A stretch of 64,000 nt of DNA from Craspedostauros australis (lineage: Eukaryota > Bacillariophyta > Bacillariophyceae > Mastogloiales > Achnanthaceae): positions 124,001 through 188,000 of the forward strand of contig JAMXDE010000066.1 in assembly GCA_026770025.1 (NCBI GenBank), given 5' to 3'. A model generated the notes under the pieces. That model searched no databases and was not told the origin of the DNA. It saw nothing but the letters and a program-made list of their open reading frames with translations. Shown one piece after another: positions 4,657 to 61,753 of the stretch (its first letter is position 1; every line of letters starts with the position of its first letter). The translations under genes were made by a program, and so were the position numbers.

Positions 4657-5744
4657 CTTTTACAGAGTGCTCGTATTGGTATGACGATGCGTTGCTGTGT
4701 ATTTGTGAACTTGAAAGTGGATGGACGAGTACAATATATAATATAATAGATCGGAGCAGAGCAGTCTCCAGACAAGAAGCTGAGAAGCTGGGAAGCTGAC
4801 ACCTGCAGATCTTCGTGATCGCAGAGATGTCTCTTGACTGTCGTTGCTGACGTTGTTGTTGCTATTGCGCCTGTTGACGCTGATGATGGACTATGACAAC
4901 CACCCAGCAGATCCTTGAGTGGTGAAGGTCAATACGGACACGGATGCAGCTGTTGATGTGAATGCCGATGGTGGAGTGTTGATGGGCGTCCTCGTTGGCT
5001 TGCAATCACTCTCATTCGTGCCCTTCTCCCAAGTGAGGTATTGGAAGCATCCACTTCGTTCTGCACATCGGATTGGCTGTCGTCATTGCGTTTTTCCTCG
5101 ATGTCGGTTCTCGTTGTTGTCAGCGTTGTCGCCAGCGTTGTTTGTGCTTGCTCAGCTCTCCACATGGTGTTTGTGTTCGTTTTGTCTCTTTTGTGTGTGT
5201 CACTCCGATGATTCATTCACGAACACGCGATTAGTGTCTCAACCAACAACCATTCCCGCGAGTGTCGATAAATTCGATCGAAATTGAGCGATGCACATGG
5301 AGAATTCTCTCAAAACGTGCGCCGTGACATGGTTTCGGCGATCGGTGCTCACAATTTGTGCTTCGTGATTGCATCGCGTGCGCAGTGACAACGCAAGAGT
5401 GGAATTTCATGCTCGATTGCAAATGGAAGCCTGAAACGAAATTCATGTCGCTCTCGTCCGTTTCAACCGTTGTGCAGCTCTCGTTTCGCACAAAGCGATA
5501 AAGGTCCACGCTCCGTGTTGCGCACAACAGGAAGCCGACTTCGTGTTTGCATCATCATTTGTGAAAGACGAGCTGGAGACCAACACCAATTTCCTGATCG
5601 ATTCATGCGCCCGAACGAAGACAAAGGCAAGACACTTCCGTTGTGACAGCGCCTGGTTGACAAGGACATCAAAGTCGACCCACGGGCAATCAACCTCACT
5701 CACAAACCAAAACGAACCAAAACGAACCAACAACAACACTGACA
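4657..5744. promoter_or_regulatory. Shared upstream region of two divergent genes
   Basis: About 1.1 kb separates the start codons of the DnaJ gene (minus) and the cyclophilin-like gene (plus), so both promoters must lie here. I did not find a convincing GAAnnTTC heat-shock element array by eye. The 5' leader of the plus gene contains AACGAACCAAAACGAACCAA repeats just before the ATG. No coding region is supported. Confidence 0.4.
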
Positions 5745-24714: not shown

Positions 24715-25155
24715 ATGGAACTGCACGCAAGGAACAAAGACAAGGACTTCATGGATGGCGCAGAAGAAGGGTCGATGTCGGATGTGTCTATGGGCTCAGA
24801 TACGCTATATCAAGGGAATGTTTGCGATCCAAACGCCGAGGTAGTCAACCTGGTGGACATCTCATCGGACGACGGATCGGCAGGGTCAACCCCCCAGTTG
24901 ACCACCAGGAAAATGAGGACCAGAGGCCAAGCCAGGCAACAAGCAAAAGGAGCCGGCGAAGTCAACGCAGGCGACCCCGGCCGTGATGATGGTGGGCCCA
25001 AGCGAACGGTTAGCCCAACGAAAAAGGCAAGACCAAAGAACAACCTAAACGCAACGGAGGCGCGGCCACTCGTGAGGCCAACAGAGCAGACAGGAACATC
25101 TGCAACAAAGAAAAGTTCTACAGCCAGCGACGGAAAGATCGCAGGCCAAGCATGA
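24715..25155 (+). CDS. LINE ORF1
   Basis: 146 residues from the first ATG inside the LINE; the frame is also open upstream into host sequence, but that part is not LINE. Hydrophilic and rich in Lys, Thr, Gly and Asp. No CCHC knuckle, RRM or coiled coil is seen. The basic second half (KKARPKNN and similar) could bind RNA. The motif EVVNLVDISSDDGS at about residues 41-55 resembles a SUMO-interacting motif followed by acidic and Ser residues. The stop codon overlaps the ORF2 start as ATGA at 25152-25155. In LINEs an ORF at this place normally encodes the RNA-binding ORF1 protein. Confidence 0.65.
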   Translation: MELHARNKDKDFMDGAEEGSMSDVSMGSDTLYQGNVCDPNAEVVNLVDISSDDGSAGSTPQLTTRKMRTRGQARQQAKGAGEVNAGDPGRDDGGPKRTVSPTKKARPKNNLNATEARPLVRPTEQTGTSATKKSSTASDGKIAGQA

Positions 25156-28100: not shown

Positions 28101-28787
28101 CTCAGCCACCGGGTTGTCAGCCTTGTGGGCCTTAGCTTCGTGGATGGTGCCGACCTCATGATATCGCAGCCAGGCGCTGACTTCGAGATGGTAGCACATC
28201 AAGCGCAGCAGGCCTTGGAGGACTGGGAAGGGGTTCTCCGCGTGACCGGGGGAGCGCTGGTGCCGGCCAAGAGCTTTTGGTGGGGTGTAAAATTCGACTA
28301 CACGGCAGGGAGGTGGAAGATGAAATCGGTTCGGGCGGCGCCAGCGAAAGTCAAGGTGCGCGATGCGCTCGGCGTCAACAGAGAACTGCGGAGGCTGGAA
28401 CCTGGAGATTCGGAACAGACTCTCGGCGTGTTCATGAACATGACAGGGAAGTCCGACGCCCAAGTGCGGTACCTGCGACAGAAGGCCGATGATTTTGCTG
28501 ACAAAGTGGTCGCAGGAGGGCTCACGCCGGACCTGGTTTGGTTGGCGATATCCACACGGATTACCAAGACACTGGAGTATCCGATGGAAGCGGTTACGCT
28601 TACCCAGCGACAGTGGGACTACGTCTACGCGCCCGTTTGGACCAAAGCCCTACCACGAGGCGGCTTGGCCCGGTCCTTCCCGAGGGCGGTGCTGTATGGG
28701 CCCAAAGCCCACGGGGGAATTGGCATGCGTAATCCTATGGTGTGGCAGCTGTCCATACAAATACAAGCAATGGCCCATGAGGTCAGC
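25152..28787 (+). pseudogene. LINE ORF2, 5' part: endonuclease and reverse transcriptase
   Basis: 1,212 codons up to the Copia insertion. An AP-endonuclease-like (EEP) domain covers about residues 156-420: IRLAFQNIGRLP, ILTVAEIGINW, VVGIDANQD, and SDHRMLWIDV with the catalytic SDH. The reverse transcriptase is at about 770-1090: FGSRKGHKAS, motif A SNDAKSCYDRVVHS, motif B GLAQGNGCGPAAW, and motif C written LSFVDGADL at 28137-28154. Motif C normally reads F-x-D-D, but here the second catalytic Asp is Gly (GGT instead of GAT). That alone should impair polymerisation. The frame continues seamlessly after the Copia element at 36718. The short extension 28788-28961 is translation into the Copia LTR, not LINE protein. 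Confidence 0.88.
28782..28787. repeat. Copia element 2 target duplication, left copy (GTCAGC)
   Basis: GTCAGC directly precedes the left LTR and recurs at 36712-36717 directly after the right LTR. Six matching bases instead of the usual five of Copia elements; one may be coincidental. Confidence 0.85.
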
Positions 28788-29578
28788 TGTTGGCAAGTTC
28801 CGCGCACGGTAACCTACGATCGTGGAAGATGGTGTTGGTTGATAGTCGTCTGTTTGCTATTTCATTACTTGGCTACTCCGATGCTCTCGGTGTACGCCCG
28901 TTCTCTTGCCCGATGCTCTCGGCGCTTCAATCTGTTTCGTAGATTCGGTCTCCGACTATGAGTCGGTACGCGAGATCCTCTCTCGCTCCTCTCTGTATTC
29001 TCTCTCTCTCTCTCAACATCGTGTGCTCGTGCTACACGATGCTTCGTGTTCGATGCGTACTCTGCATTCGACACTCTGTTCATTCAGTACTGGCTTCTAC
29101 TCCATGAGTACTTACCATTTGAAGTTCACCTTCAGTATCCATGATCTTCATGGGTCATCGTATCTTCGCCTCCTGCTCTGACTTGGAGACAGCTGTCGAT
29201 GTGGTGACATGTTGACATCCTGTCGACGTCAGTAGGCGTCCTTCTGCTCTCCAGATGTCACGTTCCATTGGTGATGCAGTAGTCTGTCAGATGATATCGT
29301 CATCTGAGGTTTAGTTGGGAAGTACCTCGAGATTCTCTTGGTACCATTGATGCATGGACGGACGATTTTCTGATTCTTCCAGAAATCGTTATTTGCAAAT
29401 TTCCTCCAGAAATCTTGCCCCTTTTTGTGTGTTCCATTTCCCCTGTAATTCTGACGAATCACAGCATACTATCGACACGAGTATAGTTATACCGTCCAAG
29501 TGCGTATGAGAGAATAGCGGGTGAACGATGCACATATACACGTACATCTTGATATATACTCACATGTACATCTCGACA
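28788..29578 (-). repeat. 3' LTR of Copia element 2 (791 bp)
   Basis: Direct repeat of 35921-36711 with the same length and the same embedded short ORFs. Contains a CT microsatellite near 28990-29010. Confidence 0.93.
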
Positions 29579-29598: not shown

Positions 29599-32500
29599 TC
29601 ATTCGAATGTTCTCGATGTGTCAAGGTACGACTTCTCATGTTCACGTTGCAAGTCGGCCTTGATGTTCTTGGTGAATCCGTCGCTTGTGTTCTGCTCGGA
29701 TTTGACGAAAATGATTTCGATGGTTTTGTTGATTACCATGTTCCTCACGTAGTGATGGCGCACGTCGATGTGCCGCGATCGTTGGGATGTTGATGGGTTC
29801 TTGGCGATGAAGATCGCCCCGATGTTGTCCACGCGGACCTTGATCGGTGTCTTCACTGGGACGCCCACACTTTCGAGTAGCTGCATGACGAAGAAGATCT
29901 CCTTTGCCGCTTCGGAAAGGGCAACGTATTCTGCTTCGGATGAGCTGAGTGTGACGGCCTTCTGTGCCTTGGATCGCCAAAGGATTGGTACCTTGCACAG
30001 GTATAGGATGAATCCCCCTACGCTGATTCTTGTATTCTTGTCTCCTGCATATTCGCTATCGCAGAAGAGCTCCATGTCCCAGCCGTCGTCATCTGGACGC
30101 GCTGGATGGATCTTCAATCCATAGTCCTTTGTATCGATCACATACTTGATGATCCAATACATCTCCTTCATTGCAGCCTTGGTGGGCCCGATCAATACCT
30201 TGGAGAGTTCCCTCACAGGGTTCGCGATATCTGGTCGCGAGTGCTTGATGAGGAAGAGTAGCATACCGACGCCTCGGCGGTATTCGGCATGTTCTTCCGG
30301 TCCGACCTTCTGCAGTCCGTTGTCTTCGGATGGTCGTACGATGATTTGACCCGGGGTTCCCGGTGTCCCATAACGTTGCATCTTCTCAACCTTGGCTCCG
30401 AATTCCTCGATGAGGTGTCGGATGAGATGTGGTTGACGCAATGTCGCTCTAGTCTTGTCATGGTTCAATTCGATGTTGCAGCTGAGGTAGTCTCCGAGTC
30501 CGCGCTCGATTGTCACCTTGAATTTGCTGCCTTGGATGTCCTTCAGGAATGTCTCCAGTGCCTTGGAGTCTCCGCAACAGAAGCAATCGTCCACGTAGAT
30601 GGCCACGATCATGCTTCCTTCGTTCGTCTTCCTGTAGAACAGGCACGGGTCTGCTGCGCTCTGTTCGAAGTTGATATTCTTGAGGGTCGATACCAACATC
30701 TTGAACCATTGCCTGGCGCTCTGCACAAGTCCGTAGATTGGCTTGTGTAGGGTCAGGGCTTCGTCTGGTTGATGATCCATCCCATTGGGACAGTTCATGT
30801 AGATCTCCTCGTCGAGGTCTCCATGTAGGAATGCCGTTACGACATCGACGAGTGCGCAGTCCATCTTCTTGATTAGCATGATCACCATCATGACCCGATA
30901 GGTCACGTCATGGATGACGGGTGAGTAATGCTCTTGGAAGTCTACTCCTGCAACTTGTGAATAGCCACATGCAACGAGCCGTGCTCGATGTGTGCCGTCA
31001 CGCTTCAGCTTGAAGACCCATTTGCACTTGCAGCATCTGCGGCCGCGTGGGATGGCGTCTCGTTTGATCTTGCTATACACCTTGCGTGTATCCATGGAGT
31101 CGAACTCCTTCTTGATGGCTGCTCGATATCCCTTCCGATGGATAGGATCTGGGTGATTGAAGGCTCCGTCGAACGTTGTAGGTTCGATGTGCTTCTCTGG
31201 TTCCTTGTTCTCGTCCTGCATCGACAATCCGATGTCGATCGCTGGTGATTCGGTAATGATTGCATTCATTCCGTATAGTCCTGTTGTGCTATGATGAGTG
31301 ATCTCGATCTCTTCATTTTCGTCTTCGATTTCTTCATCATCTGTAGTTTCGTTGTTGGAATCGTCGATCATCTCGTCGCTGAGTTCGTCACTCGCCTCAC
31401 TGGATGATGGATCGCTCTCATAGCCTTCTTCCTTTCGACCTCGTTCGTTGAAGTCTTCGAGCTCGCGCAGAGCTCTGGGAATACTCTTCCCTGTGGTTGG
31501 CTTGGGATTAGCTTCTCCCTTCCTGCCTCGTGCTTCGTGACGTCGGATCCTCTCCTTTCTAGCTATGTCACGCTTGTTTGGTTTGCTTGGTGGAGATCTA
31601 GATGGTGTGTCATGTGTAGACCTTGCTGGTGTGTTCGGAGGAGTGACACCTGTCTCGTCATCGGCTTCGTCGCCGGAGGGTAGGATTTCGTCATCCTCAT
31701 GATTGGATTCGCTCCGATCTTCCTCGTCATTCTGGATTAGTTGAGTCACTACTCCGTCGTCCTCATTATCCTCGTCATCACTGTCTGATAGAATGTAGTA
31801 CCTGTTGCTGTCAGCGAAAGATACTCTCTTCGCTTCCGATGTTTGACGCGTTGCCGTCCTTGGCGTTGCTCCCTTTCGTCCGATGGTTGTGAAGCCGTCT
31901 GCGTCCGTTGTTCCTGTTTCGTTGGATATGTTCGGTGCTGGTGCCCAACCACGGAACTGTCCGTATGATTGGTTGAGCCACTTGATGTCGCGTGAACAGA
32001 TGAGTGACTTGGTCGATGGTCTGTACATGTTGTAGACCCCTGATGCATGTTGGTGTGCATATCCGATGAACACCATCTCTTCTCCTCTGTTCTTGAGTTT
32101 GGCGGTAATCCCGCCGTAGGTAGTCTTCACAACACCCACCTCTCCAAATGTGCGGAGCGCGTTCGCATATGGTGGATCGTTGCCGAAGAATTGTCGATGT
32201 GGTGACTTTCTCTGGTTCTTCGCTACGGTGATGTTGGCGATGGCGGTGGCAGTGCTAGCAGCTGCTGCCCACAGGCCATGCCTATACTCTTCATCGAGCT
32301 GTGCTCCGTTGAGCATGGAGCGAATCTTGGTGTAGAGGTACGCGAACTTGCGTTCCACTCTTCCGTTCTGTTGCGGCGTGTTCGATGCCGTGTATTCGAA
32401 TTTCACGTTGAGTCCTGCATCGATGAGAATATCCTCCGTGGATTTGTTCTCTCCGCTGTTGTCACCTCGGAAGATGATCTGTTGGTCACCAGTCTGTGAC

Positions 32501-35500
32501 TTGATCGTCTGGATGAATCGTTTGATGTATCCTGGTTGATCACTCTTGTTCTTGAGAAAGAAACTCCAGCAGTGATCCGTGCAGTCGTCCACGATCAGGG
32601 TCCAGTAGCGTTTATCTCCGAAGCTTATGTGTTTAGTGTAACTAATGTCAATGAAGAACCGTTCGCCGCGGCGAGTAGCTCTTGGAATAGTTGCCTTCGG
32701 AATATTCTTCACTCTTGCGTTCGCGACCGCGCAGTCACGACACACCGGCATCTCGCCGATGATTTTCCATCCGTATTGAGCGGCCGTCCGCTTCATGGTC
32801 TCGAGTGGCGCGTGGCCGAGCATTCGGTGCAAGTTCACCGCGCTGATCTCCTTGGATGGATTCTTGACGATGGCTGTGCAAGCCTTGTCGTCGTCTGTTG
32901 GCATGATGGGATGCATCTGCACTCCCGTGATGAATCCGTTGGATGTGGGGAAGACTCGATCGAACACGATCTTCGTTCCGGATCCGTTGATGATGTCCAT
33001 CAGAATGCCGTTGTTACCAAGCTGGTAACCGTTGTACAGAGCCTTGTTCGTGGAGAAAAGGTTCACCGCCATCTTGGGTGTGTACTTCACATCATCGAGC
33101 CGGATGACGTGGCCAGTGTTGTCTCGCTGTTTGACTTTCAAGCGAATGGATCCCATCTTGGGAGAGTCCAGCTTCGTGCTGTCTCCCACTTGGACGAAGG
33201 ACTTGATGTGCCGCACGTTGAAGAGAGCGGCGTCCGAGTTGACGATGTGACACGAAGCTCCGCTATCGGCGAGCCAGGTGTCTTTGTTGACCTTGTCCTT
33301 GTACTTGGTGCTCAGTTCGTGGAGTTGCTCCACAGCTGCCGCAGCTATCTCGTCGTCGAAGCTGCCGTCGTCGTTGTCTTCGTGGACTCCATCTTCGTTG
33401 TATGGATGATGATGGTCTCCGTCATCCATGTCGTCGGGTAGTTGCGCGTAGTCCGATGGAATCGTAGTGTTCCGATGAGATCCTGTGGCTGGATCGTATG
33501 GGTAGACGCGTGATCGCTCTCGCAAGAGCACGCGCATGCATCCTCCAAGGATGTAATGCAGATCCGTATCTGGGATCGTTTCCGAGTCGTTCCCTTCCAG
33601 TATGCGGTTGACGATGATTGCATTGGCGAGGATCTCTTCGATTGAGTCGAAGTGCTCGGATAGGATGGATCCCATCATGTTCACCCATATTGGCATGAGT
33701 GCTCCTCGTGTCGTTCCTGGGAATACTCGCATTCCCGCTTCCATCACGGCGTCAAAGATGAGCTGCTTTTGGATTATCAATGCTGTTGCTGTTGCATTCG
33801 GGATGGTGCTGTGACGGAGGAGGTAGTCGACGCTATTGGGATTCTCAATATCCGGGAAGTCGATATTCGATGGATAGACGACACGCTCGTTTGGATTGAA
33901 GCTGTCGTCTGGATGATTGCCGTCCTCGGATTCGTCGCTGTCATCCTCGTCGAAGATGCCCGATCTGTTGTTCCCCGCCGCTGGAGGAGGCGGCGCCGCG
34001 GCGCGGCGCGTTTCGCCTTGATTGATGAAGGTTCCCGTTCTCTCGTATCTCCCAGCTTGAGGAGGAGGCAACTCGTCACGGTTCGCCTCGTCGTCTTCAT
34101 CTGCGCCGTCCTCGTCGGCGTCGTCGTCGTCGTCATCGCTCATGGCCTCTTCGATGTCGCTATCGTTGGCCTCGTCCATCTCAGCTTCGTCGCCGTATGA
34201 ACCGATCAGGTCGTGCGCGTTGAAGCAGCATTCGTAGCTCACTTCGCGTCTTGGATCCACCTCGTGGATGATTGGCTCCTCACTGAGCCACTCCGGGATG
34301 ATCTCATCATCCTGCACTTCGTCGTCACTCCCGACGTATTCGAAGTTATCGAAGAAGGAGTCTTCGATGTAGTCGTCGGACACCAACATGCAGAGCGGCA
34401 TGTCCTTTGCAGAGAGTACCATCTCGTGCCCGCTCTTGTCGTGTCCTTCCGTAGCCGCGTTGGCTTGTTCGTTGTTCTTCTTCTCGTTGAACTTCTTCTT
34501 TCGACATTCCGCCTCGCGATGTCCGAAGATGCCGCAGTAGTTGCACTTGCCCTTGAAGCCGCTTCCCTTGTTGCGCTTTCCGTTCATCTTGTTGTTGTTG
34601 TTGTTTTTCTTGTTGTTCGGTTTCTTGCGTTCTGGGCAATCGGCGGATCTATGGCCATACACGCCACAGTTGTGACAAGTACCCTTGAAGTTACCGGTGC
34701 TTGTGAAGCCGGTGTCGTTGCTCTTCGTGTTGCTGTCTTGGAAGTCGTCGACGTATGCCTTGCCTCCTCTGTGGGTGGCGTATGCAGTACGGAGTACTCC
34801 TCTGATCGCGTTGATGGTAACCAGTTCCGGATTGAACGTGAGTTGGTGTTGGAAGTTCACGACGTGGGTTTTGTATTCCACGCTCACCGTGCTGAGGATC
34901 TGCATGATCATTTCCTCGTCTGTGATCTCGTACTTGACATCGTGAAGACGCGATCGTAGACTCTCGAGTTGCGTGATGTAGATGTCGGGGTCCGTGTCTC
35001 TCTTCATCTTTTCGTTGTTGAATTGGCGCTTGAGTTTGATCTTCGTTACTGCGTCGGATGGTCGGAACTTCTCCGCGAGAACGTTCCACGCTCCGTGTGC
35101 GTCTCCTTCGGGGTAGTCGACGGAGATGCATTGGTTGATGTACTGGATGGCTTGCTTGCCCTTTCCTTTTTCTGCATCCATCATGAGGATCAGATCGCTG
35201 AAGCAATCGCATCCCAGCTCGTAGATCTCCTCCATCGCTTCCTTGTCTTCATCGGCGGCTGCCGCGATCTCGCTCACTGTTGGCACCTTGGTCTTGCCCA
35301 ACATCACGTCTCTCGTCTTCTGTGCACGAGCGTATGCCTTCGCTTGGGACTCCCATGCGCTGTAGTCTTCCTGTTCACCGCTGAACATCGGCGCCTTGAT
35401 GCGTCGCTTGTTCACGTTGGCTGATGTCGCCATGTTGATTCGTTGTTTCGTCGTTGGTGCGCTCGCGCCCTTGATTTCCGTCTGTTTCTGTGTTGTCGAT

Positions 35501-35838
35501 TCTTCGATTTTCGCCTGTTGTTGCGCGGAGATTGTTTTCGTCACAAATTCTCCTCCTGGTGGTGTCTCACTTTTCCCACCCTGTTTGGCTGTGCGAATGC
35601 TCTTCGTCACACCAGTCTCCTCTTGCTTGATCGCCTTGAGAATCCTCTTCTCCTTACGATGTAGTCTTGCAGACCGTTCTTCTTCGGTCTCGTCGATCGC
35701 GCTTGCGTCTGCGCTTGATAGGACAGTAGCCGCGGCTGCTTCCTTCTCTTCTCGTGGTGGAGTCTCACTCGCACCTTCTTCTCTCTTGATAGTCGGATTG
35801 GACAGAGGGATGTCTTTCAATTCCTCTTCCTCGCTCAT
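29599..35838 (-). CDS. Gag-Pol polyprotein of Copia element 2 (intact, 2,079 aa)
   Basis: ATG at 35838 and stop at 29599. Acidic/Lys-rich N-terminus, then a UBN2-like Gag (about 150-360). Two CCHC zinc knuckles follow at about 388 (CHNCGVYGHRSADC) and 431 (CNYCGIFGHREAEC). A long acidic region with an embedded helical segment spans about 480-840 and is not part of standard Copia proteins. Protease is at about 855 (LADSGASCH), then a GAG-pre-integrase segment (HRMLGHAPLETMKR). Integrase shows Asp in FFIDISY (about 1062), RGDNSGE and NGRVERK. Reverse transcriptase has YVDD at 30586-30597 (about 1748), and RNase H has FCDSEYAG, LSSSEAEYVALSEA and VRVDNIGA. The order PR-IN-RT-RH defines Copia. 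At 2,079 residues it is several hundred residues longer than usual, owing to the inserted region. All visible catalytic motifs are intact. Confidence 0.92.
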   Translation of the reverse strand: MSEEEELKDIPLSNPTIKREEGASETPPREEKEAAAATVLSSADASAIDETEEERSARLHRKEKRILKAIKQEETGVTKSIRTAKQGGKSETPPGGEFVTKTISAQQQAKIEESTTQKQTEIKGASAPTTKQRINMATSANVNKRRIKAPMFSGEQEDYSAWESQAKAYARAQKTRDVMLGKTKVPTVSEIAAAADEDKEAMEEIYELGCDCFSDLILMMDAEKGKGKQAIQYINQCISVDYPEGDAHGAWNVLAEKFRPSDAVTKIKLKRQFNNEKMKRDTDPDIYITQLESLRSRLHDVKYEITDEEMIMQILSTVSVEYKTHVVNFQHQLTFNPELVTINAIRGVLRTAYATHRGGKAYVDDFQDSNTKSNDTGFTSTGNFKGTCHNCGVYGHRSADCPERKKPNNKKNNNNNKMNGKRNKGSGFKGKCNYCGIFGHREAECRKKKFNEKKNNEQANAATEGHDKSGHEMVLSAKDMPLCMLVSDDYIEDSFFDNFEYVGSDDEVQDDEIIPEWLSEEPIIHEVDPRREVSYECCFNAHDLIGSYGDEAEMDEANDSDIEEAMSDDDDDDADEDGADEDDEANRDELPPPQAGRYERTGTFINQGETRRAAAPPPPAAGNNRSGIFDEDDSDESEDGNHPDDSFNPNERVVYPSNIDFPDIENPNSVDYLLRHSTIPNATATALIIQKQLIFDAVMEAGMRVFPGTTRGALMPIWVNMMGSILSEHFDSIEEILANAIIVNRILEGNDSETIPDTDLHYILGGCMRVLLRERSRVYPYDPATGSHRNTTIPSDYAQLPDDMDDGDHHHPYNEDGVHEDNDDGSFDDEIAAAAVEQLHELSTKYKDKVNKDTWLADSGASCHIVNSDAALFNVRHIKSFVQVGDSTKLDSPKMGSIRLKVKQRDNTGHVIRLDDVKYTPKMAVNLFSTNKALYNGYQLGNNGILMDIINGSGTKIVFDRVFPTSNGFITGVQMHPIMPTDDDKACTAIVKNPSKEISAVNLHRMLGHAPLETMKRTAAQYGWKIIGEMPVCRDCAVANARVKNIPKATIPRATRRGERFFIDISYTKHISFGDKRYWTLIVDDCTDHCWSFFLKNKSDQPGYIKRFIQTIKSQTGDQQIIFRGDNSGENKSTEDILIDAGLNVKFEYTASNTPQQNGRVERKFAYLYTKIRSMLNGAQLDEEYRHGLWAAAASTATAIANITVAKNQRKSPHRQFFGNDPPYANALRTFGEVGVVKTTYGGITAKLKNRGEEMVFIGYAHQHASGVYNMYRPSTKSLICSRDIKWLNQSYGQFRGWAPAPNISNETGTTDADGFTTIGRKGATPRTATRQTSEAKRVSFADSNRYYILSDSDDEDNEDDGVVTQLIQNDEEDRSESNHEDDEILPSGDEADDETGVTPPNTPARSTHDTPSRSPPSKPNKRDIARKERIRRHEARGRKGEANPKPTTGKSIPRALRELEDFNERGRKEEGYESDPSSSEASDELSDEMIDDSNNETTDDEEIEDENEEIEITHHSTTGLYGMNAIITESPAIDIGLSMQDENKEPEKHIEPTTFDGAFNHPDPIHRKGYRAAIKKEFDSMDTRKVYSKIKRDAIPRGRRCCKCKWVFKLKRDGTHRARLVACGYSQVAGVDFQEHYSPVIHDVTYRVMMVIMLIKKMDCALVDVVTAFLHGDLDEEIYMNCPNGMDHQPDEALTLHKPIYGLVQSARQWFKMLVSTLKNINFEQSAADPCLFYRKTNEGSMIVAIYVDDCFCCGDSKALETFLKDIQGSKFKVTIERGLGDYLSCNIELNHDKTRATLRQPHLIRHLIEEFGAKVEKMQRYGTPGTPGQIIVRPSEDNGLQKVGPEEHAEYRRGVGMLLFLIKHSRPDIANPVRELSKVLIGPTKAAMKEMYWIIKYVIDTKDYGLKIHPARPDDDGWDMELFCDSEYAGDKNTRISVGGFILYLCKVPILWRSKAQKAVTLSSSEAEYVALSEAAKEIFFVMQLLESVGVPVKTPIKVRVDNIGAIFIAKNPSTSQRSRHIDVRHHYVRNMVINKTIEIIFVKSEQNTSDGFTKNIKADLQREHEKSYLDTSRTFE

Positions 35839-51294: not shown

Positions 51295-52777
51295 GGTGGA
51301 TGTGTCAGAGGCGAAGCTGTTCAAAAGGATTTTGATATTGTGGGACACACTCGAACAGTATTTCGATGTTGCGTTGGATTGTGTGGGATTGCGTTGGATT
51401 GCGTTGCGTTGCTGGGGTCAATCGCAATGGCCCTTGCAATGTGATGTCACACAGTCGACGCTCTTGATTGCGTTCTGGTGTTTGTTGTGTGTTGCTTGTT
51501 GCGCAGTTGATGCGGAAGTTGACTCTGTGAATGGATCTTGTGTTGTGGTGGAGCCTCACCTCTCTTGTCTGATTCTTGATTTGCCAAAATGATTGGAACA
51601 CGACGGGCGACGTGTCGTGAGTGGCCGTGTGTTGGTCTTGTTGGTCTTGTTAGCGGGGTAGTTGGTGGTGGCGATGATCTATCGTGTTCTTCCACGCTTA
51701 TTCGTCCTTTTGCTGCCTGGTTTCCTCCGTTTCACTTCAATCCATTTCCCCTCGCTTCATTTCGCCCCGAATGTGGTGGCAATTTTTGCGGACAAGACGA
51801 AAAAGAAGCTGAAGCTCGCGGGGCAGGCTCGCTCAACGCAACGTCGATGTGTTTCGCGGGCTTCGTGCAGCAGAGCGCGCCAACCATCCGTATGTTTCCT
51901 CATTTCGAACAAGCGCAACCGTTCGACGACACGCGCCGGCCACACAATTCTGTTTTGTTATCTTGTCTGTGTCGATCATCCATTCGGGTGTGTCGAAACC
52001 GTGTGGTTCGTCATCCATATACATACAAAGTCCTTCTTACTCGTGACTCGTAGCATCACACATGAATCATGCTTACATTCGTGACAAAGAGACTCTTGAA
52101 TCACTTTTGACGTCATGTACTCAACGGTTCTCACAAAATCGAAACCGATTGCGCGATGTGGAACACAGACACAGTTGCAAAACTCCGAAACCGCTTCCCT
52201 GCGTTTACTGGTCAACACAAAGCCGCGCTTTGCCTCACACATCCACACTTCACCATTGGACACCAACATTGACAGCGAAGGATTGTCGCCATGGGCTTCC
52301 TGGTCCTTACCAAATTGGCATTTCAAGACTACAACAGGGACTCGAGCATTTAATACATCGCTCGTCGGTCACCCGTCCCAACATGACGGCGAGATGATCA
52401 CAAAGTCCGAAACCAGCCATTGCCGCCCATCATCGCGAGGAGAGGAGTGCATCGCCATCCCAACAACAGCCTTCATTTCGGACATTGTCATGAGGCCAAG
52501 TAATCGCAACAACAACGATGCTCTGGCGATCAAGCAAACACAAAGGTCCAAATGCAGATCAACTTCTCATAAATCAAACCAAACATCCAAACAAAGCAAA
52601 GCACAAACCCGATCAAAGCAGACTTGGAACTGAATCCTCGTCTTCTCTCCTCTTTCGAAACCAACAGACCAACCGACCGCAACCTCCATCCAGCTCATAA
52701 ACTCGACAAAATCGTCAAACCAACCAACGTTCACCAACCTATCAAGCAACCAAGCACCAACCAAGCCAAAGCTCAAG
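51295..52777. promoter_or_regulatory. Divergent intergenic region of HMGR and the anchor-A gene
   Basis: 1.48 kb between the two start codons. It must contain the promoters of both genes, but I recognise no specific element such as a sterol-response element. No coding region is supported. Confidence 0.4.
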
Positions 52778-53736
52778 ATGAAGTTCACCACAGCCATGCC
52801 GCTCCTCCTGGCATCTGCCATCCCTTCCGCCCGTGCCCTCTTCACCACTCCGCATGAGATCTGCCCGGACCTCGTCAACCTCGGTCCCACCATGAGCGGA
52901 CCCAGCGACCCCCTGGTCCGTCCCTCCGAATACCCTGCCTTGTCCAGCCCCATCCAGACACCATTCCTCTACGATGACAACACCTCCGTCTTCGTGGGTG
53001 GCACCCTCACCATGACGCCCGGCACGCTCATCGAAGGGAAGATCGTGGTGATGAACAACGTTTTCCTCGAGGCTTCCCCGCTGCCCGGTTCCGAAACCTT
53101 CTTGGGATACACCCCCACCGGCTCAGGCGCCATCCCATCGCAGGGTTCCGATGGCGTCCTGGTCGGAGGCAGCGTCTTCTCGTCCGGATCCGGCCCGATC
53201 AACGTCCTCTCCGGAATCCCGCGGACATCGGGATCCATGGTCTTCGGAGGCAGCGACTATGTTGAGGCCACCACAACAATCAACACCGGTGGCAACGGAC
53301 AGTTCCGCCACGACCCCAGCCTCGCCAACCAGCAGGCCAACACCGCTCTCCTCGACGAAATGAAGGCGCGATCCACCTACTGGAACTCCCTGCCAACCAA
53401 CGGCGTGGCCACGCGCCGCTCTCTCAACATCAATGGCGTGCAAGAAGACCACCTCCACCTCTCCGCCGCAACCATCAACCCGCCGTGTCATCAGGTCTTC
53501 CACCTCGATGCTGGGGCTCTCGATGGTACCAACATCGCGCCTCACATCAACTTCGCTGTCCGTTTCGATGGCACGCTCAACTTCGCCGCCATCATCATCA
53601 ACGTCAAAGCCGATGCGTATGGCACCGTCAACCTCGCGAATATCGCGTCCTTCATCGATCCCGAGGGCTTGGCGGACTCCGCCTTCAATCCCAGATACTA
53701 CTCCAGTATCATCTGGAACTTTCCAGACGCCACCTA
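52778..53736 (+). pseudogene. Choice-of-anchor A / PTS-repeat secreted protein, N-terminal half (split gene)
   Basis: Starts with a signal peptide (MKFTTAMPLLLASAIPSARA, about residues 1-20). It continues into a choice-of-anchor-A-type domain: early segment VFVGGTLTMTPGTLIEGKIVVMNN, a Gly-rich middle, and HQVFHLDAGALDG with SSIIWNFPDATY at the end. The reading frame is cut after codon DAT-Tyr by a Tc1/mariner-type element at 53737. The remaining half begins at 60787. Removing the element and one TA joins both halves in one frame of 641 codons. In place, translation runs on through the inverted repeat to 54076 and would give a chimeric protein ending in a hydrophobic stretch. Choice-of-anchor A domains occur in secreted and surface proteins; no enzymatic role is known. 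Confidence 0.8.
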
Positions 53737-53786
53737 CTACCTCCAGGTCGCAGTTGATGCACTCACGATAACACTAGTTGTGGAGT
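53737..53786 (+). repeat. Left terminal inverted repeat
   Basis: CTACCTCCAGGTCGCAGTTG and the following 30 bases are the reverse complement of 60735-60784, apart from T/G at position 2. Beyond base 50 the two ends diverge. Confidence 0.92.
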
Positions 53787-54072
53787 TTTGGCCCCTTGTT
53801 GCCACTGGTTTGCTCGCTTTTGGGAGAAACGGCGATTGGATATTTAGAGCTATTTCGTGTTTACTCTCGCTGATCCGTCTTCTACGTCACATGGAGCGGA
53901 TTCCACGTCATGAAAAACGAGTCACAACAGAGGAAGAGACATTGTGTGACTCTTCCTCCCCAAGACAAGATGATGACTGCGCGCGGCAACACCAACATGC
54001 ACCAGGCCATGACAGCCAACATGAGTCCTCGTTGACCGATGTCACAGCGGAAACCAACATAGTCCAATCGCA

Positions 54073-55740
54073 TTGACGAACGAAACAGCACAAGCCGCAA
54101 TCGCTGATGTCCACAATGACGCAGACGATTCCAAACGCGAAGACACATCCTTCCTCACCATCGATCCAAAGGACATCAATATCGTCAACTGTGACGAGCT
54201 GGATCTCGACGCAGCGAACGGCCGCGAACTCTCAGAGGGGAGAGGATGCCAACAGCATCCGAGAATCGACCTGCGCCGACACGTTCCGCGGTTCCGTCAA
54301 CATCATCGCCAACCATCGCAACACCCTGGTTGTCTTCCACAATCTGGGCGATCTCATGGAGGGTCAGGATGCCAACTTCCTGCAGGACCTCATGAACGAC
54401 ATCGTGTTGTCATGGTTGCTGAGCCTCAAGATCATCATCGTCACAGGATGCTGTTACCAGCTGCAGCAACATATCGCGGGGCAGGATTGGCATCGTGGCG
54501 TGGCGGTCACAGACCGTGATGCGTTGCGCGTCGTCAAGGAGGTGGTGGGATATATCCGATACAAGATCGAACGTCATCTGGCACGATCATTGCGCATGCA
54601 GGATGCCAACGACTTGCACATGCCATTGTCGAAGCAGACCGCGCATTTCGATTCGGAATATCAATCGAATGGCAATGGCAATTACCAGCACCGGCACCAG
54701 CAGTCCCCACCAAATGGATCCTATCAACACGGCGCAGCCATTGAACATCCTTGATGGTGTCGATTCTATATCCACAGGATTTGCGCGCCGCATCGACATC
54801 GAGAAGATCTGCCTGGTTCACAACTCCTGCGATATCGTCCTGCTCACAACATGGGGTATCAGCCCCAGCAATGAAGTCTTCAATGCCAATTCCAAAAGTT
54901 GGCAGGCTCGGTCGCAGGTGCCATGGATGCGAGCAAGATCATCTACTTCACAGAAGGCAACGTGCAGCTGTGGCACAATGTCCATGGCAAGCAGATCCAT
55001 CATCTGCGCGTCAAGGACGCCCACAACCTGCTGCGACACCGCACTGTCGACGTCCACAAGCGCGGTCTCGTCACCTTAGGCGAGAGCTGTCCCCAGGAAA
55101 GCGCCAAGCGCAACAAGCTCATCAAGATCGGCTGGGCAATGTATGCACTTGAGCAGGGCGTCTGACGTGCGCACATCATCTCACCACGGCATGGGGCGTT
55201 GCTGCAGGAGCTGTGCACACAAGACAGCAGCGGCACCATGCTCTCTCGCGAACTCTACAACAATATCCGCCAGGCCAAGATCGAGGACATCAGTGCCATC
55301 CATGAGCTCATCACACCGCTCATCCAGATGGGAACGCTAGTGGATCGGCCAAAGGCCATGTTAGAAAAATGTTATCCTCATACCACGTCTACACGCGCAA
55401 TGACCTCGTCGTGGTGTTTGGGCAGCTCAAGATGTTGGAGAACAGGTTCGCTAAGATCGCGTGCCTCGTCGTGGATCGCAGCTAATGCGCGCAAGGACTT
55501 GGTGATGCCATGCTTGGCTACATGGAATGTCTGTGTCTGCAGAAGGGGGCGTCCTGCGTCTTCGTTCTCAGCACGCAGACGACGGAATGGTTCATCGAAT
55601 GTGGATTTGACGAGGTCGATGTCAGCTGGCTGTCACCCAGCTATCACACCGCGTACGATACCAAGCGCAACATCATGATTTGCACGAAGATCACCAACGT
55701 TCGTCATCTGGATGCCTCCGAACTGTGGTGGAATAGGTAG
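54073..55740 (+). pseudogene. N-acetylglutamate synthase (kinase-like + GNAT) pseudogene inside the transposon
   Basis: Scattered over three frames is a full-length relative of N-acetylglutamate synthase, the first enzyme of arginine synthesis. The amino-acid-kinase-like part includes TFRGSVNIIANHRNTLVVFHN, SLKIIIVTGC, GFARRIDIEKICLVHNS and DIVLLTTWGISPSNEVFNAN. It continues with AGAMDASKIIYFTEG and, after a stop, RAHIISPRHGALLQELC. The GNAT part shows KIEDISAIHELITPLIQMG, KIACLVVD, GLGDAMLGYMECLCL, CVFVLSTQTTEWFIECGFDE and YDTKRNIMICTK. Lesions I can place: frameshifts near 54240, 54725, 54896, 55377 and 55485, and a TGA at 55163-55165 that looks like a CGA-to-TGA change. No introns explain the shifts. 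It lies wholly within the transposon, so it is best read as captured cargo that has decayed. Confidence 0.78.
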
Positions 55741-56514
55741 ATTACACAATAAAGGCACAGTGGATACAATGGGCATAATACATAGTCGTATGTATCGTAT
55801 TATAGGAGCTGCACTGGCACATCACATCACATCACAGCATAGTATAGCATACGAGCATTGTATGGTGTGGATTCGTTGCGCTCTGCTCTGCTCTACTCTA
55901 CTCTACTCTACTCTACTCTACTCTACTCTACTCTACCAATACATGACGATTGTGCTAGTGGCAGCGCCGTCGGCAGGGCACGAGCAGAGATGAATGATCA
56001 GAGGATGCATCGTTGGTGCTCCAGTGACGAGTACAGACGCTTGGACTTGATGGCAGCAACGATCGCGAGGGTTGCACATGTGTGATGAAGAGAAAGCGGA
56101 ATACTGGCATGGCACGATGTGGTACAGATGTACGAGTGCGGTACCAACCAAGAGGAGGCTTTGCCATTCCATTGGTTTGTGCGACACACACCGATTGTGC
56201 TGGCGCTCCGATCGACGCAGTTGGGGCCTTGGAGCGTTTTTGTGTGTGGTTCGGCTGGAATTTTTCCGACCAGAGCGGCACAACACAACGTGCCGGCTTC
56301 ACAACACGATGGCTCCACAACGCGATGGCTCCACGACGCACACCATTCACGACACAAAAAAACGGTCCGCGTCACACAATTCACACCACACATCACATCA
56401 CAAAACACACACCACACATCACAATCCTCCATGCCATCAAACAGACGATACGCACACAGGCACTCCAACCACAGGTGTGCCTATAACATATAATACTACT
56501 ACTTCGATTTGCAG
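55741..56514. other. Non-coding spacer within the transposon
   Basis: Between the NAGS remnant and the transposase stop codon. Holds the CTCTA array and CACA/ACACC-rich sequence; no coding signal. Confidence 0.5.
55881..55936. repeat. CTCTA microsatellite
   Basis: About eleven 5-bp units, first CTCTG then CTCTA, inside the transposon between the captured gene and the transposase. Confidence 0.9.
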
Positions 56515-59061
56515 CTACATCTCTGCTGTGTTGGTATCCTGCTCTGCTTTGCTGTGATGCTCGTCCTTGCCAACGAACATGGCCACTTCGAATGTGTTCA
56601 TGGTGGGTGCTGCTTCGGCTTTGCTGTTGTTGTTGCGAGGCTCAATGATGTCAGCTTTGCTCTTGCTGGGTTGCTTCTTTCTCTTCTCGTCTTTCTTCTG
56701 TTGCTCAGCCTCCTCATTGGCTATGGTTGTCGCAACGATTTGCTTCTCCAGCAACGGAATGAGGCTGCTGGTTGTTGGCAGATTCGTTTTCAGGCACTGC
56801 AGTCCACTGACAGCCATCACCTTGAGGGCATCATTGTACATACCTTTGATGTCGGGCTTGGCGTATTTGAAGCCAGCTGATTTGCCTTTGTTGCCTGTTG
56901 CAGTTGGTTTCTTGGTGGTCGCGCGGGTTGCCTCATCCTCCTCCAACACGAAGTCCGTGTGAGACACGGTAACGCCGATCTTGTTGCCCTCTTTGTCGAA
57001 TTCCGTGGACGTTTGTTTCCGCACATTCATGTGCAGTCCCTTGCGCTCCGTCACAAATTCGTCACCTCCTTTTGCAGCACAAATTGCGTAGGCAATCTGA
57101 TGGTGGCGAACATACGCGCTAGCCACCTTGTCCAGCTTGAATTGGTTCCAACAGGTTCCACAAGCATTCCACAATGCCTCAGTGGTAAGCAATCGGCTTT
57201 CGTGGTACTCACCTTGATACGCTGACACGTGTTTCGACATCGCTGGGAATATCGCATCGTCTTTCACATTCGTGATGGGAGAATTTGGTGGTTGCAGTCG
57301 TAAGTGCCATCCGCGACTGTCGAACTCCTCCTTGATGAACCTGAGCAGTTCCGTGTCTCTGTGTGGCCCCGCGCCATCCATCTGGTACCGAATCACCACG
57401 TTCTTGCCCGTTTCGGCCTTGATTTTGTTGGCGAGCGAATCCAGTGCAGGGATTTCTTTTTCGCGGAAGAATTTCTTGAGGCTGTACTTCGGCTTGGGCT
57501 TATCACGATGACCATCTGTTTCCTTGCTGCCTGTGATCTCCAGTGGTTGGAAATACAATTTACCCTTCTCCCGAGAGATTTTCTCGGGATCAGGAAGGTG
57601 CTTGTACTTGGTCGGCGAGACCCAAGTTCGCTTGTACGTGGTCTTCTGCGCTCGGACCATGCGCCCAACACGTTCGAAGTTCACCTTATACGCCTTTCCT
57701 CCTTTCGCAAAACAGTTATTTGTTGGGGCAAATGCTGTTGATGCAATTGCCATGGTCTTGTCAATGTGACACTTGTGATGCACAGTCTGCTTCACAAGCT
57801 TAACTCCCATCTGGGGCACATGTTTCAGATGCATGCGAGCGACAATGGAGTAGAACCACTTTTCGTCCATGTGGACAAGGACAACTTGCGTATTCTCAAA
57901 CAGCTCAGCTGATTCCCAGAACACACAGAAGTCCTTAGCCCAGATGTCGCGCTTTGCTGTAGTGGTGCCATTGATCAGAGGGAGTATTGTTGTAGAACGG
58001 TACTCACTGCCTTCCAATCCCATGACGAATTTGCGAATACACTTCGGACCAACGACTTGCGGGTTTCCGCTGCCTGCCAGTTTCCATGCAATTCTGTCCC
58101 ACGAGATTGCGCCATTGCACCGTCGCAACACATCCTGGAGCTCAAATTGCAGGAAGGGACCACGCTCCAACCACAAATCAGCCAGCACTTTTGCGGATGC
58201 CAGCTCTTCCGGCGAAGCAGAGGCATAGGCAGAAGCGATTTCGTCGTTCTTGAACTGTTGCTCTGGATGTCGAAGACGTAGTTGTTTCTCGAAGGCTGCG
58301 CGCGGCGTGAAGTACTGTCGTTGCTTGATGGGGCAGGTGAAGATGCTGCTGCCTGCGTCGCTTCGCTTCTTGCATTCAAGCGTCTCCGTTTGGAATTTCA
58401 AAATGTTGCGCCCTACTGTGGTGCGGTCGATACCCCATGCATGGGCGATCAATTTCGTGTTGGCTGGAATCGCACCCAAATTGAAATAGAGAACAGTGTA
58501 GTTCCGATTGTCTTCTTTGTCAAGGCGTTTGCTAGGATTACCAGGCTTAGCAATACTACGCCCTCCATCCTTTCACAACCATCCTTTTGTTTTCGCGCCT
58601 TTCTTCATCTGCTTCGTGAGCTGGGCGATTGCTGTTGCTTTCTGACGCCGCGAGACCTCGAGAAAAGCGGCGATTTTGGCTTCTTGCGATTCTGTGGTAG
58701 TTGGGGATGGTGTGGTGGGCTTAGCCTTGTTGTTGACACGCACGGCAGCGGCGGAGTGATGCTGGGGAGAAAGGAGGGAAGGCTGAGCAAGGCCACCAGC
58801 AGTGCGAGTCCGTGCGAAGGTAGCGAGGCTGTGTGGTGTGCACAGATCCTCGCGAACAACATACATTCGGCTCTGCCCCATCACTGGGGTCACCATGATC
58901 ATCTCCACCTCTCCTGGTGCAAGAGGCCCATCACGTTTGACAGTAGCGCCCTCAACAGTCAGCTTCATTGCAAACTCAACATGACATACGCCCAGGTCAT
59001 GGACCCTGCCACTTGAGCTCTGGTGGGGTGCCACCTTCACACAGTCGCCAGCGCGCAGCAT
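56515..59061 (-). pseudogene. Tc1/mariner-type DD38D transposase with in-frame TGA
   Basis: DDE transposase on the minus strand. The main open stretch begins after a TGA at 58575-58573 and ends at 56515. The same frame is open upstream from 59061 (162 codons), so one nonsense codon, or TGA readthrough, separates the N-terminal basic region (MKKGAKTKGWL) from the rest. Soon after the TGA is a helix-turn-helix-like segment (TKLIAHAWGIDRTTVGRNI). Catalytic residues, numbered from the codon at 58479, are D205 in VHMDEKWFYS, D368 in YQMDGAGPH, and D407 in QPPNSPITNVKDDAIF. The 38-residue gap between the last two and the DEKWF and QPPNSP motifs match plant- and oomycete-type mariner transposases. 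The C-terminal 150 residues are Lys/Glu/Gln-rich. At roughly 850 codons overall it is long for a mariner transposase. Probably inactive because of the stop codon. Confidence 0.83.
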
Positions 59062-60734
59062 GCTTGCAAGGTGAAGAGTACAGTGATTGCAGGGTGATGT
59101 GTGCTGTGTTGGTGGAGGCTGCAGTGTACTTCAAAGGGGCATCGCGACGCACACCAGAATCACGAGGACAGCATCACAGCGCACCGCATCATCAGCCATC
59201 GAAGCACAGCACGGCGCAGCGCGTCACAGGGGGCATGGGCAACATTGGATGGTCACAAGGTGCATTGTGTCGTCCGCTCTCTCCCATGTGGACAGTCACA
59301 GTCATTCTACATTGTTGTACAATCAGTGGCTACAAGCAACAGAGAATCAACAGCAGGTCGTCCCAGATGTGCAATGTTTCCGTTGTCCATTTTGTGAGGT
59401 CAGTTTTGTTGTTGTGGAATGGAGGCGCAATTCGGGACTCGAAAAGTGTTCCCATTGGTTGGCACATTCGGTAGAATTGTGGTTAATCTCCGTGGCCCCC
59501 AACAGCAAAAACTGTTTGAGAACACCAAACACAACACAACAACACGACAATGGAGAAACACAACAAAACTCCTCAAGCGCCGTCGAACGGCATCATCGGC
59601 ACTGCGACAACCAGCGGTCCAGTGTAAGATCCGAGGGAATAGGCGGAACCGCCATGGAAAGATTGGTGGATGAGCGAGAGGGGGATGCCATCGTGGTTGA
59701 TTTGGGGCCGTGGCAGGCCCACGCGCACACGACACGATTCGGAGGAACATCAGCTCATTGGATATGGTCTCTGCCTGGAATGCACAGGCCATTCCAACGA
59801 CTATTGATGGGCAAGACGTATCCAAGAGGATACGATGAAGATGCACACGAAGTTTGAGGGTCGGGAGTGGCCTGGAAGGTGCCCTCCGCAAGAAACAAGT
59901 TGAGGGCAAGAGTTTTTTGGTGGGTGGCGGCGGACCCATCACATGACTTCGGTGGTGATGGGTGCCGTTCACAAGTCACCCAAATCGCCAAGCCACTCAT
60001 ACAAGATGTGTTCGAAATCAACTCAAGATGGCTATGACGAAGTATCCTGCGCAGATACGGTCTGGAAGAGGCTGCAGCCTGGGATGCACAAAAAATGGTT
60101 TTTTTTGGGGTGTCGGAAAAACATCATGATGGCATCATCACATGGAGGTGTACCTTTGGAAGTACGAACTCCCCACCCATTCTGAACACATCAGTGTGTC
60201 GCCAGAGAATGTGGGAACGCATGAGGGGCATGTGGAGGAGCTGCAAGGATCGTATCGACGAGATACGGATCCAAATCCGAACGGCATCAGCATCGAAATC
60301 GTGTTTTCAAAAATTCTGCTTTTCAGTGCAGGGACAGTTTGGAGTATGAGATGAGCCTATCTGCGCAGGATCTTCATGGAGTGGATATATGGGGGGTATC
60401 CGGAGCCAGTGTGGTGCGCAGATTGTGAAAATGCCAGGGATGATAATGATGATCATGGGTGCTGAAGGTAGGGCAGCATGGTGGCACCCCGAATTTTTCG
60501 CACCCACCACCTGACAGACAGCAAGCCAAAACGACATTAAAAATAAAGTCCATACAAATTCAACTTTGATATTCAGAATAATCGATAGCCAAGCGTCCGA
60601 ATGCACTGTCTATTTTTAATTTTAAATGTTGTGGTGTCGAGATATAACATCATAAGCAGTTGTTTGGATGGTTTTGGGTGTGCTCTATTTTAGTCTACTT
60701 TATCACGACTCATCACGAGTAAAACTCAAAAAAC
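59062..60734. other. Right part of the transposon, degraded coding-like block
   Basis: Between the transposase start and the right inverted repeat. From about 59640 to 60354 the plus strand holds runs that look like worn protein-coding sequence in shifting frames: KTYPRGYDEDAHEV, RVFWWVAADPSHDFGGDG, QIAKPLIQDVFEINSRWL, LRRYGLEEAAAWDAQK and YRRDTDPNPNG. I do not recognise the family. It could be a second captured gene or part of the original transposon. Confidence 0.35.
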
Positions 60735-60784
60735 ACTCCACAACTAGTGTTATCGTGAGTGCATCAACTGCGACCTGGAGGTCG
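60735..60784 (-). repeat. Right terminal inverted repeat
   Basis: Reverse complement of 53737-53786 except at the second base from the end; followed by the target TA. Confidence 0.92.
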
Positions 60785-60786
60785 TA

Positions 60787-61753
60787 CGTCACTGCCGGGG
60801 CCTGCAATGTGCGGAACTGCAAGAAGGCATACCTGCCCGGAACCATTCTGGCCCCCTTCGCCAGCGTGTACTTCGGCATGCTAGGACAGATGGGCCGCAT
60901 GATCGTGGGCAGCGACCTCACCTTCGCAGACCCGAACGTGGTCCTCGCCAACTACGCCTTCGAACCCTTCTTCTGTCCGCTGCCAGCACCGCCGACATTC
61001 CCAGTGCCAGAGGCGTGCATTGGCGGTCCACCGACTTCGGCACCAACGTCGCAGGAGACCTTCGTCTACACCTTCGTTGACACCAACGAGCCCGACCCGA
61101 CTTCCATGCCAACCTCTGGACCGACATCTGGACCGACATCCGCACCCACTTCCGCGCCGACATCTGCTCCAACATCTGGACCGACTTCCGCACCAACTTC
61201 CGCGCCGACATCTGCTCCAACATCTGGACCAACTTCCGCACCAACATCCGCGCCAACATCTGGCAACGACGATGCGGTGAGATTGGCAGCGATGCACGGC
61301 AAGACCATGTGGAACAAGACGCCGCTCAACCCTCCATTCCGAGTCCTTGCATCCAACGTTGACACCGTCGAGTTTCAGTTCTTCAGCTCCGCATGGGGTA
61401 TGGATGAGGTCCTTCCCTTTGTGTACACTTCGTACAACAAGCCAGCATCCATGCCGGATCAAGAATGCGTGCTGGATGAGAACGTCTCATCCGCCGATGT
61501 CATCACCCACACTGCGCAGTGCAACTCCGCAACCAACACGGCCATCGTGGATCTGTTCATTGTCGACGGTCCAAACTTCGACCCCGCCACCGATGATGCC
61601 AACATCCCGCGTTGCTGCCATGCGGATGCGGAGTCTGCTCACGACGGTGCCGCGGTCGTGCAGTACGTGTTCGTGATCGACTGCACTCCATCGGGAGCTG
61701 ACGGCGCCGAAACTCCCAACCGCGTGCGTGGGTTGAGAGGAAGCAGTGCTTAA
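60787..61753 (+). pseudogene. Choice-of-anchor A / PTS-repeat secreted protein, C-terminal half (split gene)
   Basis: Resumes the frame of the gene cut at 53736: VTAGACNVRNCKKAYLPGTI, then LAPFASVYFGMLGQMGRMIVGSD, the closing strands of the choice-of-anchor-A domain. A Pro/Thr/Ser repeat region follows (61097-61264). The end is a Cys-containing globular domain of about 160 residues (TMWNKTPLNPPF, VEFQFFSSAWGM, CVIDC-like end VFVIDCTPSG), finishing RGLRGSSA. PTS repeats of this type are common in secreted and wall-associated diatom proteins. The half has no start codon of its own in the host sequence. The open frame continues upstream into the transposon to 60668, so a fused transcript could still be translated, without a signal peptide. 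Confidence 0.8.
61097..61264 (+). repeat. Coding 12-bp repeat (Pro-Thr-Ser-Ala/Gly), 14 units
   Basis: Fourteen tandem tetrapeptides PTSM, PTSG and PTSA, with codon variation between units. Probably an extended, O-glycosylated stalk between two globular regions. Confidence 0.92.

Follow-up and report, generated by a model that had tools for sequence, protein, structure and literature searches.

A transposase-bearing mariner-type element with a captured N-acetylglutamate synthase gene and probable serial gene capture in the diatom Craspedostauros australis

Introduction

How does a cut-and-paste transposon come to hold a large piece of a host gene beside its own transposase gene, and what becomes of such cargo? 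The question is raised by an element of 7,048 bp at positions 53737-60784 of a 64,000-nucleotide stretch of the Craspedostauros australis genome (the window: positions 124,001 to 188,000 of contig JAMXDE010000066.1, assembly GCA_026770025.1). An initial annotation, made from the sequence alone, had read this element as a mariner-type transposon carrying one captured gene, that of N-acetylglutamate synthase (NAGS). All eight carriers of this cargo match one donor gene, and the same ends and the TA target were found in all nine copies measured at both ends, in agreement with the capture of NAGS by a mariner-type element; the notion of a single captured gene gave way, as at least four kinds of cargo, NAGS the earliest, have occupied one place. 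We conclude that a Tc1/mariner-type cut-and-paste element, probably autonomous in its intact copies, has very likely captured host genes serially by gap repair.

The genome searched comprises 74.8 Mb in 90 contigs; C-numbers below denote contigs (the window lies on C64) and L-numbers denote fetched loci. Copy counts are lower bounds, set by the limits of the searches, and may also be inflated by duplicated contigs.

Architecture of the element and its copies

The features of the window copy, and of the host gene around it, are as follows.

53735..53736, no strand: left TA target duplication
53737..53786, plus strand: left terminal inverted repeat, equal to the right end at 49 of 50 positions
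53737..53982, plus strand: left backbone, common to cargo-free copies and copies with other cargo
53983..56182, plus strand: captured NAGS gene segment, from about codon 235 of the donor open frame to about 400 nt past its stop
54067..55474, plus strand: amino-acid-kinase-like part of the NAGS remnant, frame-shifted (search match on C64)
55486..55740, plus strand: GNAT part and C-terminus of the NAGS remnant, named by likeness to scanned sister copies
56183..56514, plus strand: backbone from the captured segment to the transposase gene
56515..59061, minus strand: DD38D transposase gene, 848 codons long in the copy on C10 when counted from its ATG
59062..60734, plus strand: right backbone
60735..60784, minus strand: right terminal inverted repeat
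60785..60786, no strand: right TA target duplication
52634..53734, plus strand: 5' part of the host gene, with an ice-binding-like adhesive domain (Pfam pAdhesive_15)
60787..61753, plus strand: 3' part of the host gene, with PT repeats and DUF7633

This anatomy shows cut-and-paste insertion at TA, and the TA-flanked element of about 7 kb with 50-bp inverted repeats described initially was recovered at exactly the same coordinates. No recognised gene was found in the right backbone in the single reading frame scanned. Nine copies were measured at both ends (the window copy, L025, L026, L027, L029, L030, L033, L034 and L044; six with NAGS and three with a later cargo described below, the PT-repeat gene). 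All nine have TA on both sides, with differing flanks, and in all nine a single element is bounded by a left and a right end in the same order. The ends do not, then, belong to two different elements, and no second set of transposon ends was seen inside the element around NAGS; either finding would have spoken against the initial annotation, which had also proposed a search for other copies with the same ends and a NAGS remnant. That search located NAGS at eight places: C64 (the window), C10, C38, C31, C1, C52, C72 and C33 (all 41 candidates scored). The nearest sister found is the copy on C10, with 98.3% identity over 6,989 aligned positions. Cargo-bearing copies measure 7.0-9.6 kb.

The transposase previously described as DD38D is present inside the element. 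D399, D562 and D601 are invariant in all 11 aligned sister transposases, and 38 residues separate the last two, an interval within the 34-41 residues of the Tc1/mariner families described in PMC7325037. In the window copy, one in-frame stop (58573-58575) breaks the frame into 185 and 685 codons. The window copy is the sole exception among the NAGS carriers, the other seven of which have an open frame of 848-887 codons (871 in C10, C38 and C31). At least 65 matches to the transposase were listed in the genome (65 of 191 candidates scored). The ratio of nonsynonymous to synonymous substitution rates (dN/dS), calculated by NG86, which ignores transition bias, was 0.20-0.54 in all 55 pairs of 11 copies, a set standing apart from the window's own transposase. 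The compared transposases remain under selective constraint, and the open frames suggest that the element is probably autonomous in its intact copies. An AlphaFold2 model of 341 residues of the transposase core was too poor to use (mean pLDDT 34), searches of PDB and PHROGs gave nothing useful, and pattern scans for relatives in viral contigs returned 228 and 19 matches, none of which was confirmed.

The backbone itself varies. Set against the C27 copy, transposases of the L042, L028 and L041 type diverge chiefly within alignment columns 200-439 (57-85% in these columns, 75-100% outside them), and the outer end sequences of these copies differ from those of other subfamilies, as if the DNA-binding part and the ends changed as a pair between subfamilies. 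When L028, L041 and L042 are compared with L033 and L025, the outer ends and the transposase stretch before the catalytic core are seen to differ together.

A single capture of NAGS from a gene on C24

None of four pieces of the window cargo scanned with Pfam gave a match at cut-off. Less decayed copies match AA_kinase, GNAT and the acetylglutamate synthase chain 2r8v (E 1e-32). The NAGS models were scored for the donor gene described below and for the carrier on C52: both pass TIGR01890 (351 and 233 bits; cut-off 202.85), while for NF003641 (cut-off 344) the donor passes at 396 and C52 falls below at 258. The initial annotation had described a full-length, frameshifted NAGS relative with kinase-like and GNAT motifs. 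Its identity and frameshift stand, but not its length: everything before about codon 235 of the donor frame is missing, and the window remnant has an internal deletion of about 170 nt.

The donor, C24:207361-210033, is one open frame of 891 codons with its first ATG at codon 90. All eight carriers match the donor locus (L031) from 2366-2368 to 4734-4735, with internal gaps. Carriers and C24 are 82-89% identical. These two breakpoints, the same in every carrier against one donor, indicate that NAGS was captured once. In a search with 3.7 kb of the donor region, C24 alone among the 43 matches listed reaches outside query positions 867-3236 (40 of 151 candidates scored), and no element ends or transposase were found in the 9 kb fetched around the donor. 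The captured piece comprises 2.37 kb and ends about 400 nt past the stop; capture thus appears to have left out the start of the donor and a likely targeting region. A comparison of introns, proposed earlier as a means of separating a DNA from an RNA route, cannot do so here because the captured part of the donor is a single open frame without an intron. A second NAGS-like gene, on C8, is 39-44% identical to the cargo; as a possible donor it was set aside for the gene on C24. The fetched part of this gene (C8:2147250-2148900, L045) scores below the cut-offs of the NAGS models.

The carriers share signs of decay. A deletion of 14 or 15 nt near the 5' edge is present in all eight, and a 1-nt deletion further on is common to six; an open frame of 617 codons over the kinase-like part persists in C52, C72 and C33. 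Between the window copy and C1, dN/dS of the NAGS segment is 0.79, with differences by codon position of 49, 31 and 37 of 575; between C10 and C1 it is 0.77. Most lesions are common to the window copy and C10, so that decay predates the last jump, as the initial annotation had supposed in proposing that the cargo decayed over transposition. The cargo of the window lineage probably does not work and would be a passenger in near-neutral drift. A tandem CTCTA run lies in the captured 3' flank (window 55881-55936), and 20 nt of it are absent from C10.

Exchange of the NAGS core with its donor

The carriers are not uniformly distant from the donor. The NAGS core (window 54301-55681) is donor-like in C38, C52, C72 and C33, while the right edge groups with the other elements. 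In the core of C38, the donor agrees with C38 at 153 sites, against 26 sites at which C38 agrees with the window copy; in the right edge the corresponding counts are 14 and 61 (Fisher 2e-24 for core versus right edge; 8e-23 for core versus both edges together). The right-edge test gave 7e-13 for C52, 2e-11 for C72 and 7e-11 for C33. The left edge of C38 alone is unclear when set against the window copy (22 against 23) and clearer when set against the window copy and C1 together (2 against 11). These patterns point to exchange of the NAGS core with the donor in five carriers, the four tested and C31, which is nearly identical to C38 (the pair differ at 1 of 647 codons, with no silent change and hence no dN/dS). 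The exchange would have run from donor to element. Differing constraint on the donor was rejected as the cause of the pattern, since the decayed window branch would then need a rate in the core several times that in the right edge.

An empty site and later cargo at the same place

Cargo-free relatives occur in the same genome. L042, on C3, is an element of about 4.8 kb up to its presumed right end. A search with its left end and junction, which matched left ends and junctions only, was scored at 40 of 293 candidates: 35 places, L042 included, continue across the junction with no insert (79-100% identity), and the other five end at or short of it. The empty site reads TGCGCAGCACACACC. The donor piece begins with GCAGCA (6 nt) and ends with GCAG (4 nt), both of which are present in the empty site. 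Shared letters of 6 and 4 nt together had a frequency of 4.5e-5 in 200,000 random choices of joints, an approximate figure, as we assigned the joints on sequences that have since diverged.

Three further kinds of cargo, a protein-L-isoaspartate methyltransferase piece, a PT-repeat gene and a Ser/Ala-rich piece, are found at the place of the NAGS cargo. The methyltransferase piece (Pfam PCMT, 4e-8) is present at 15 places (all 15 candidates scored), and the 5' stub of NAGS adjoins it at 14. Of 94 places scored for the PT-repeat cargo (1,375 candidates), 46 reach at least 75% identity and count as this cargo; the remaining 48, at 41-49% and mostly with longer open frames, were taken as host genes. 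In a DNA search with this cargo, 29 of the 38 matches listed span its whole length of 4.3 kb at 99-100%, with 35 of 219 candidates scored, and in this class of 29 near-identical listed copies the PT gene has a stop between frames of 131 and 450 codons. The Ser/Ala-rich cargo has eight near-complete copies. A 683-codon cargo of this class matches C24:284633-288225 only at query positions 273-3807; this donor lies inside an open frame of 5,037 codons, from which a piece of 3.5 kb was taken. The two donors on C24, that of the Ser/Ala-rich piece and that of NAGS, are separated by about 75 kb.

Remnants of NAGS around the later cargo allow part of the succession to be ordered. NAGS stubs stand on both sides of the PT-repeat cargo in all six loci aligned (donor 2366-2500, and 4086-4193 with 4383-4734; 4086-4734 in L044). 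A stretch of 171 nt (92%) just inside (left of) the 3' stub of NAGS is common to the PT class and the methyltransferase class, the latter read there in one locus. The stubs and the shared stretch together indicate the order NAGS, methyltransferase, PT. The Ser/Ala-rich cargo, read in L043, keeps only the 3' stub of NAGS, and appears to have entered separately from the methyltransferase/PT series.

Seven places (C23:600739, C59:27797, C31:242272, C26:536358, C7:1942550, C12:723224 and C2:3615134) share the right backbone from exactly boundary 3806 (query L043:3600-7860, minus strand) without the cargo leftward of it, and may represent a fifth class of cargo. Paired left and right ends about 18 kb apart were seen at C42:306937-325005, C17:1160829-1179609 and C54:240814-258934, or about double the 9.6 kb typical of PT-cargo copies; later insertions may account for this. 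At C61:3608-12603 and C75:7824-16820, two PT-cargo copies stand head to head about 50 bp apart; the two contigs seemingly hold an identical pair, which suggests a duplicated or haplotype contig.

Proposed mechanism and alternative explanations

Serial capture by gap repair would proceed as follows. A break inside the element would be filled by copying the NAGS locus, with switching at short shared sequences, which we regard as the most likely route. The NAGS carrier then multiplied, as its copies show. As the stubs show, new cargo from other genes subsequently entered the region on at least three occasions, each time within older cargo or at its edge, probably again by gap repair. The NAGS core was also copied anew between donor and element where the two still matched, probably from the donor. 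In the window lineage the cargo is a decaying passenger, while the transposases compared stay under selection. The window copy itself landed in a coding gene, and its transposase now has an internal stop. There is about an even chance that the fixed internal site acts as a recurrent gene-exchange bay, which has successively received pieces of at least four host genes, with every capture preparing the site for another, and whose cargo can be refreshed from its donor by conversion. If so, the element would both sample the genes of its host and maintain their contact with the source.

Other histories would leave some of the same traces. Capture through RNA, with complementary DNA filling the gap instead of chromosomal DNA, would fit the single open frame of the donor, with a 3' untranslated region as a possible source of the roughly 400 nt that follow the stop. 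However, there is no poly(A) at the joint, both ends are internal to the locus, both joints have short shared sequences, and the Ser/Ala-rich piece comes from within a very long frame; we consider this route unlikely, with a small chance of being right. The cargo might instead be a working NAGS that benefits element or host and is kept by selection, in line with the long kinase-part frame in three carriers and with dN/dS of 0.28-0.45 among C38, C31, C52, C72 and C33 (nine pairs with a ratio). Yet every carrier lacks the 5' part of the donor and has the 14- or 15-nt deletion, six have the 1-nt deletion as well, the window copy is near neutral against C1, and the class that carries the stop-broken PT gene has 29 listed copies that are nearly identical. 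The low ratios among the five carriers need no selection on the cargo if their cores were exchanged with a constrained donor; selection was set aside on this ground, and a working NAGS appears improbable. The reverse direction, in which the C24 gene would be a host gene made from transposon cargo, might be suggested by the closeness of the carriers to C24, the cores of those tested being nearer to C24 than to the window copy. It is very improbable, given that C24 has a 5' part and flanks present in no other listed match, that no transposase or ends lie in the region fetched around it, that all carriers stop at the same two points, and that NAGS-free left ends are many and diverse. A composite, in which solo ends of two different elements flanked and mobilised host DNA, would account for the large size and for ends common to many other copies; the consistent pairing of ends with TA on both sides in the nine copies measured, and the transposase inside, make it hardly credible.

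Several observations weigh against serial capture by gap repair in a Tc1/mariner-type element, or qualify it. Gap repair is read only from the junctions, whose joints have diverged since and were placed by us. Precise deletion between the short joint repeats could explain part of the empty copies, although the number and spread of empty junctions make an ancestral empty state the simpler reading. On a tree of 16 transposases, NAGS cargo must have changed at least three times and PT cargo at least twice. As the NAGS breakpoints are common to all carriers, cargo and backbone have been reshuffled between lineages; blocks of cargo or transposase have also moved from one element lineage to another. 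Only candidate donors were found for two cargoes: for PT, C13:874703-876343, an open frame of 919 codons at 79-85%; and for the methyltransferase, C2:2154972-2155250 (74%), the sole place of the 15 without a NAGS stub. The low dN/dS among the five carriers could reflect some selection on cargo, and the window copy and C10 give 0.36, on 17 differences. Finally, the transposase matches no family at cut-off in Pfam and nothing in NCBIfam or PDB, the Pfam scan giving one helix-turn-helix hint below cut-off (E 0.064); assignment to the Tc1/mariner type draws only on target, ends and motif.

Relation to known gene-capturing transposons

Gene capture had initially been called unusual for Tc1/mariner elements. 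It is not without precedent, as one account (PMC8903248) describes rice Pack-Mariner elements, which hold gene pieces inside non-autonomous mariner-type elements. The Pack-Mariner and Pack-TYPE elements of rice and maize, as described there, resemble the present element in their mariner-type ends, TA target and host-gene pieces, some from multiple loci. In that account a Pack-TYPE element has a piece of a host gene between its ends, with the donor intact elsewhere, as is the case here; such elements are non-autonomous and lack a transposase, in contrast to the seven NAGS carriers with an open transposase frame. The present captures are also stacked at one place and partly datable, with cargo-free relatives in the same genome, unlike those of the Pack-Mariner elements described.

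Animal Pack-TIRs, as described in PMC8277862, share with our element short common sequence at the breakpoints, an intact donor and, in some cases, later multiplication. They are mostly single-copy, whereas here four kinds of filler are found in one transposase-bearing family, together with later exchange with the donor. Models of capture by gap filling or fork switching have been published for them (PMC8277862), and gap repair with switching at short shared letters, as proposed here, follows these models. PlantMar elements (DD39D) of plants and stramenopiles, according to PMC7325037, have a D-D-D triad of similar spacing and a length of 2-6 kb. Compared by description, the present element (DD38D; 7.0-9.6 kb with cargo) lies outside that spacing and length and is not filed as PlantMar. 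Turmoil-1 of C. elegans is an animal DNA transposon that took up coding sequence; its cargo is described as lying inside the terminal repeats (PMC2572040), while ours lies between the left backbone and the transposase gene.

In searches limited to open-licence PMC papers, we saw no description of a mariner element that retains its transposase and captures genes serially, and the word mariner is absent from the main text of the reviews PMC6431247 and PMC13317346. Arguments about how DNA transposons take up host genes have drawn largely on the end products. In the present genome, cargo-free relatives occur together with an intact donor, a first capture, later cargo stacked in it and re-copying from the donor; with all these stages in one genome, gap-filling models become directly testable. 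The copies show that a mariner-type element may carry several kilobases of host DNA and still retain its transposase gene, and they suggest that cargo can spread without working.

Insertion site and neighbouring genes

The window copy is inserted into a coding gene with an adhesive domain, PT repeats and DUF7633. The host frames that begin at 52634 and 60656, on either side of the insertion, keep the same register (remainder 0 for both).

Three retrotransposon genes lie elsewhere in the window, at 17357-20074, 25014-28958 and 29602-35838; two have RVT_2 (copia type) and one has a sub-threshold match to RVT_1. Genes seen alongside, which would suggest a diatom or other stramenopile as host, include two with heat-shock-factor DNA-binding domains, an HMG-CoA reductase gene, copia elements and PT-repeat families.

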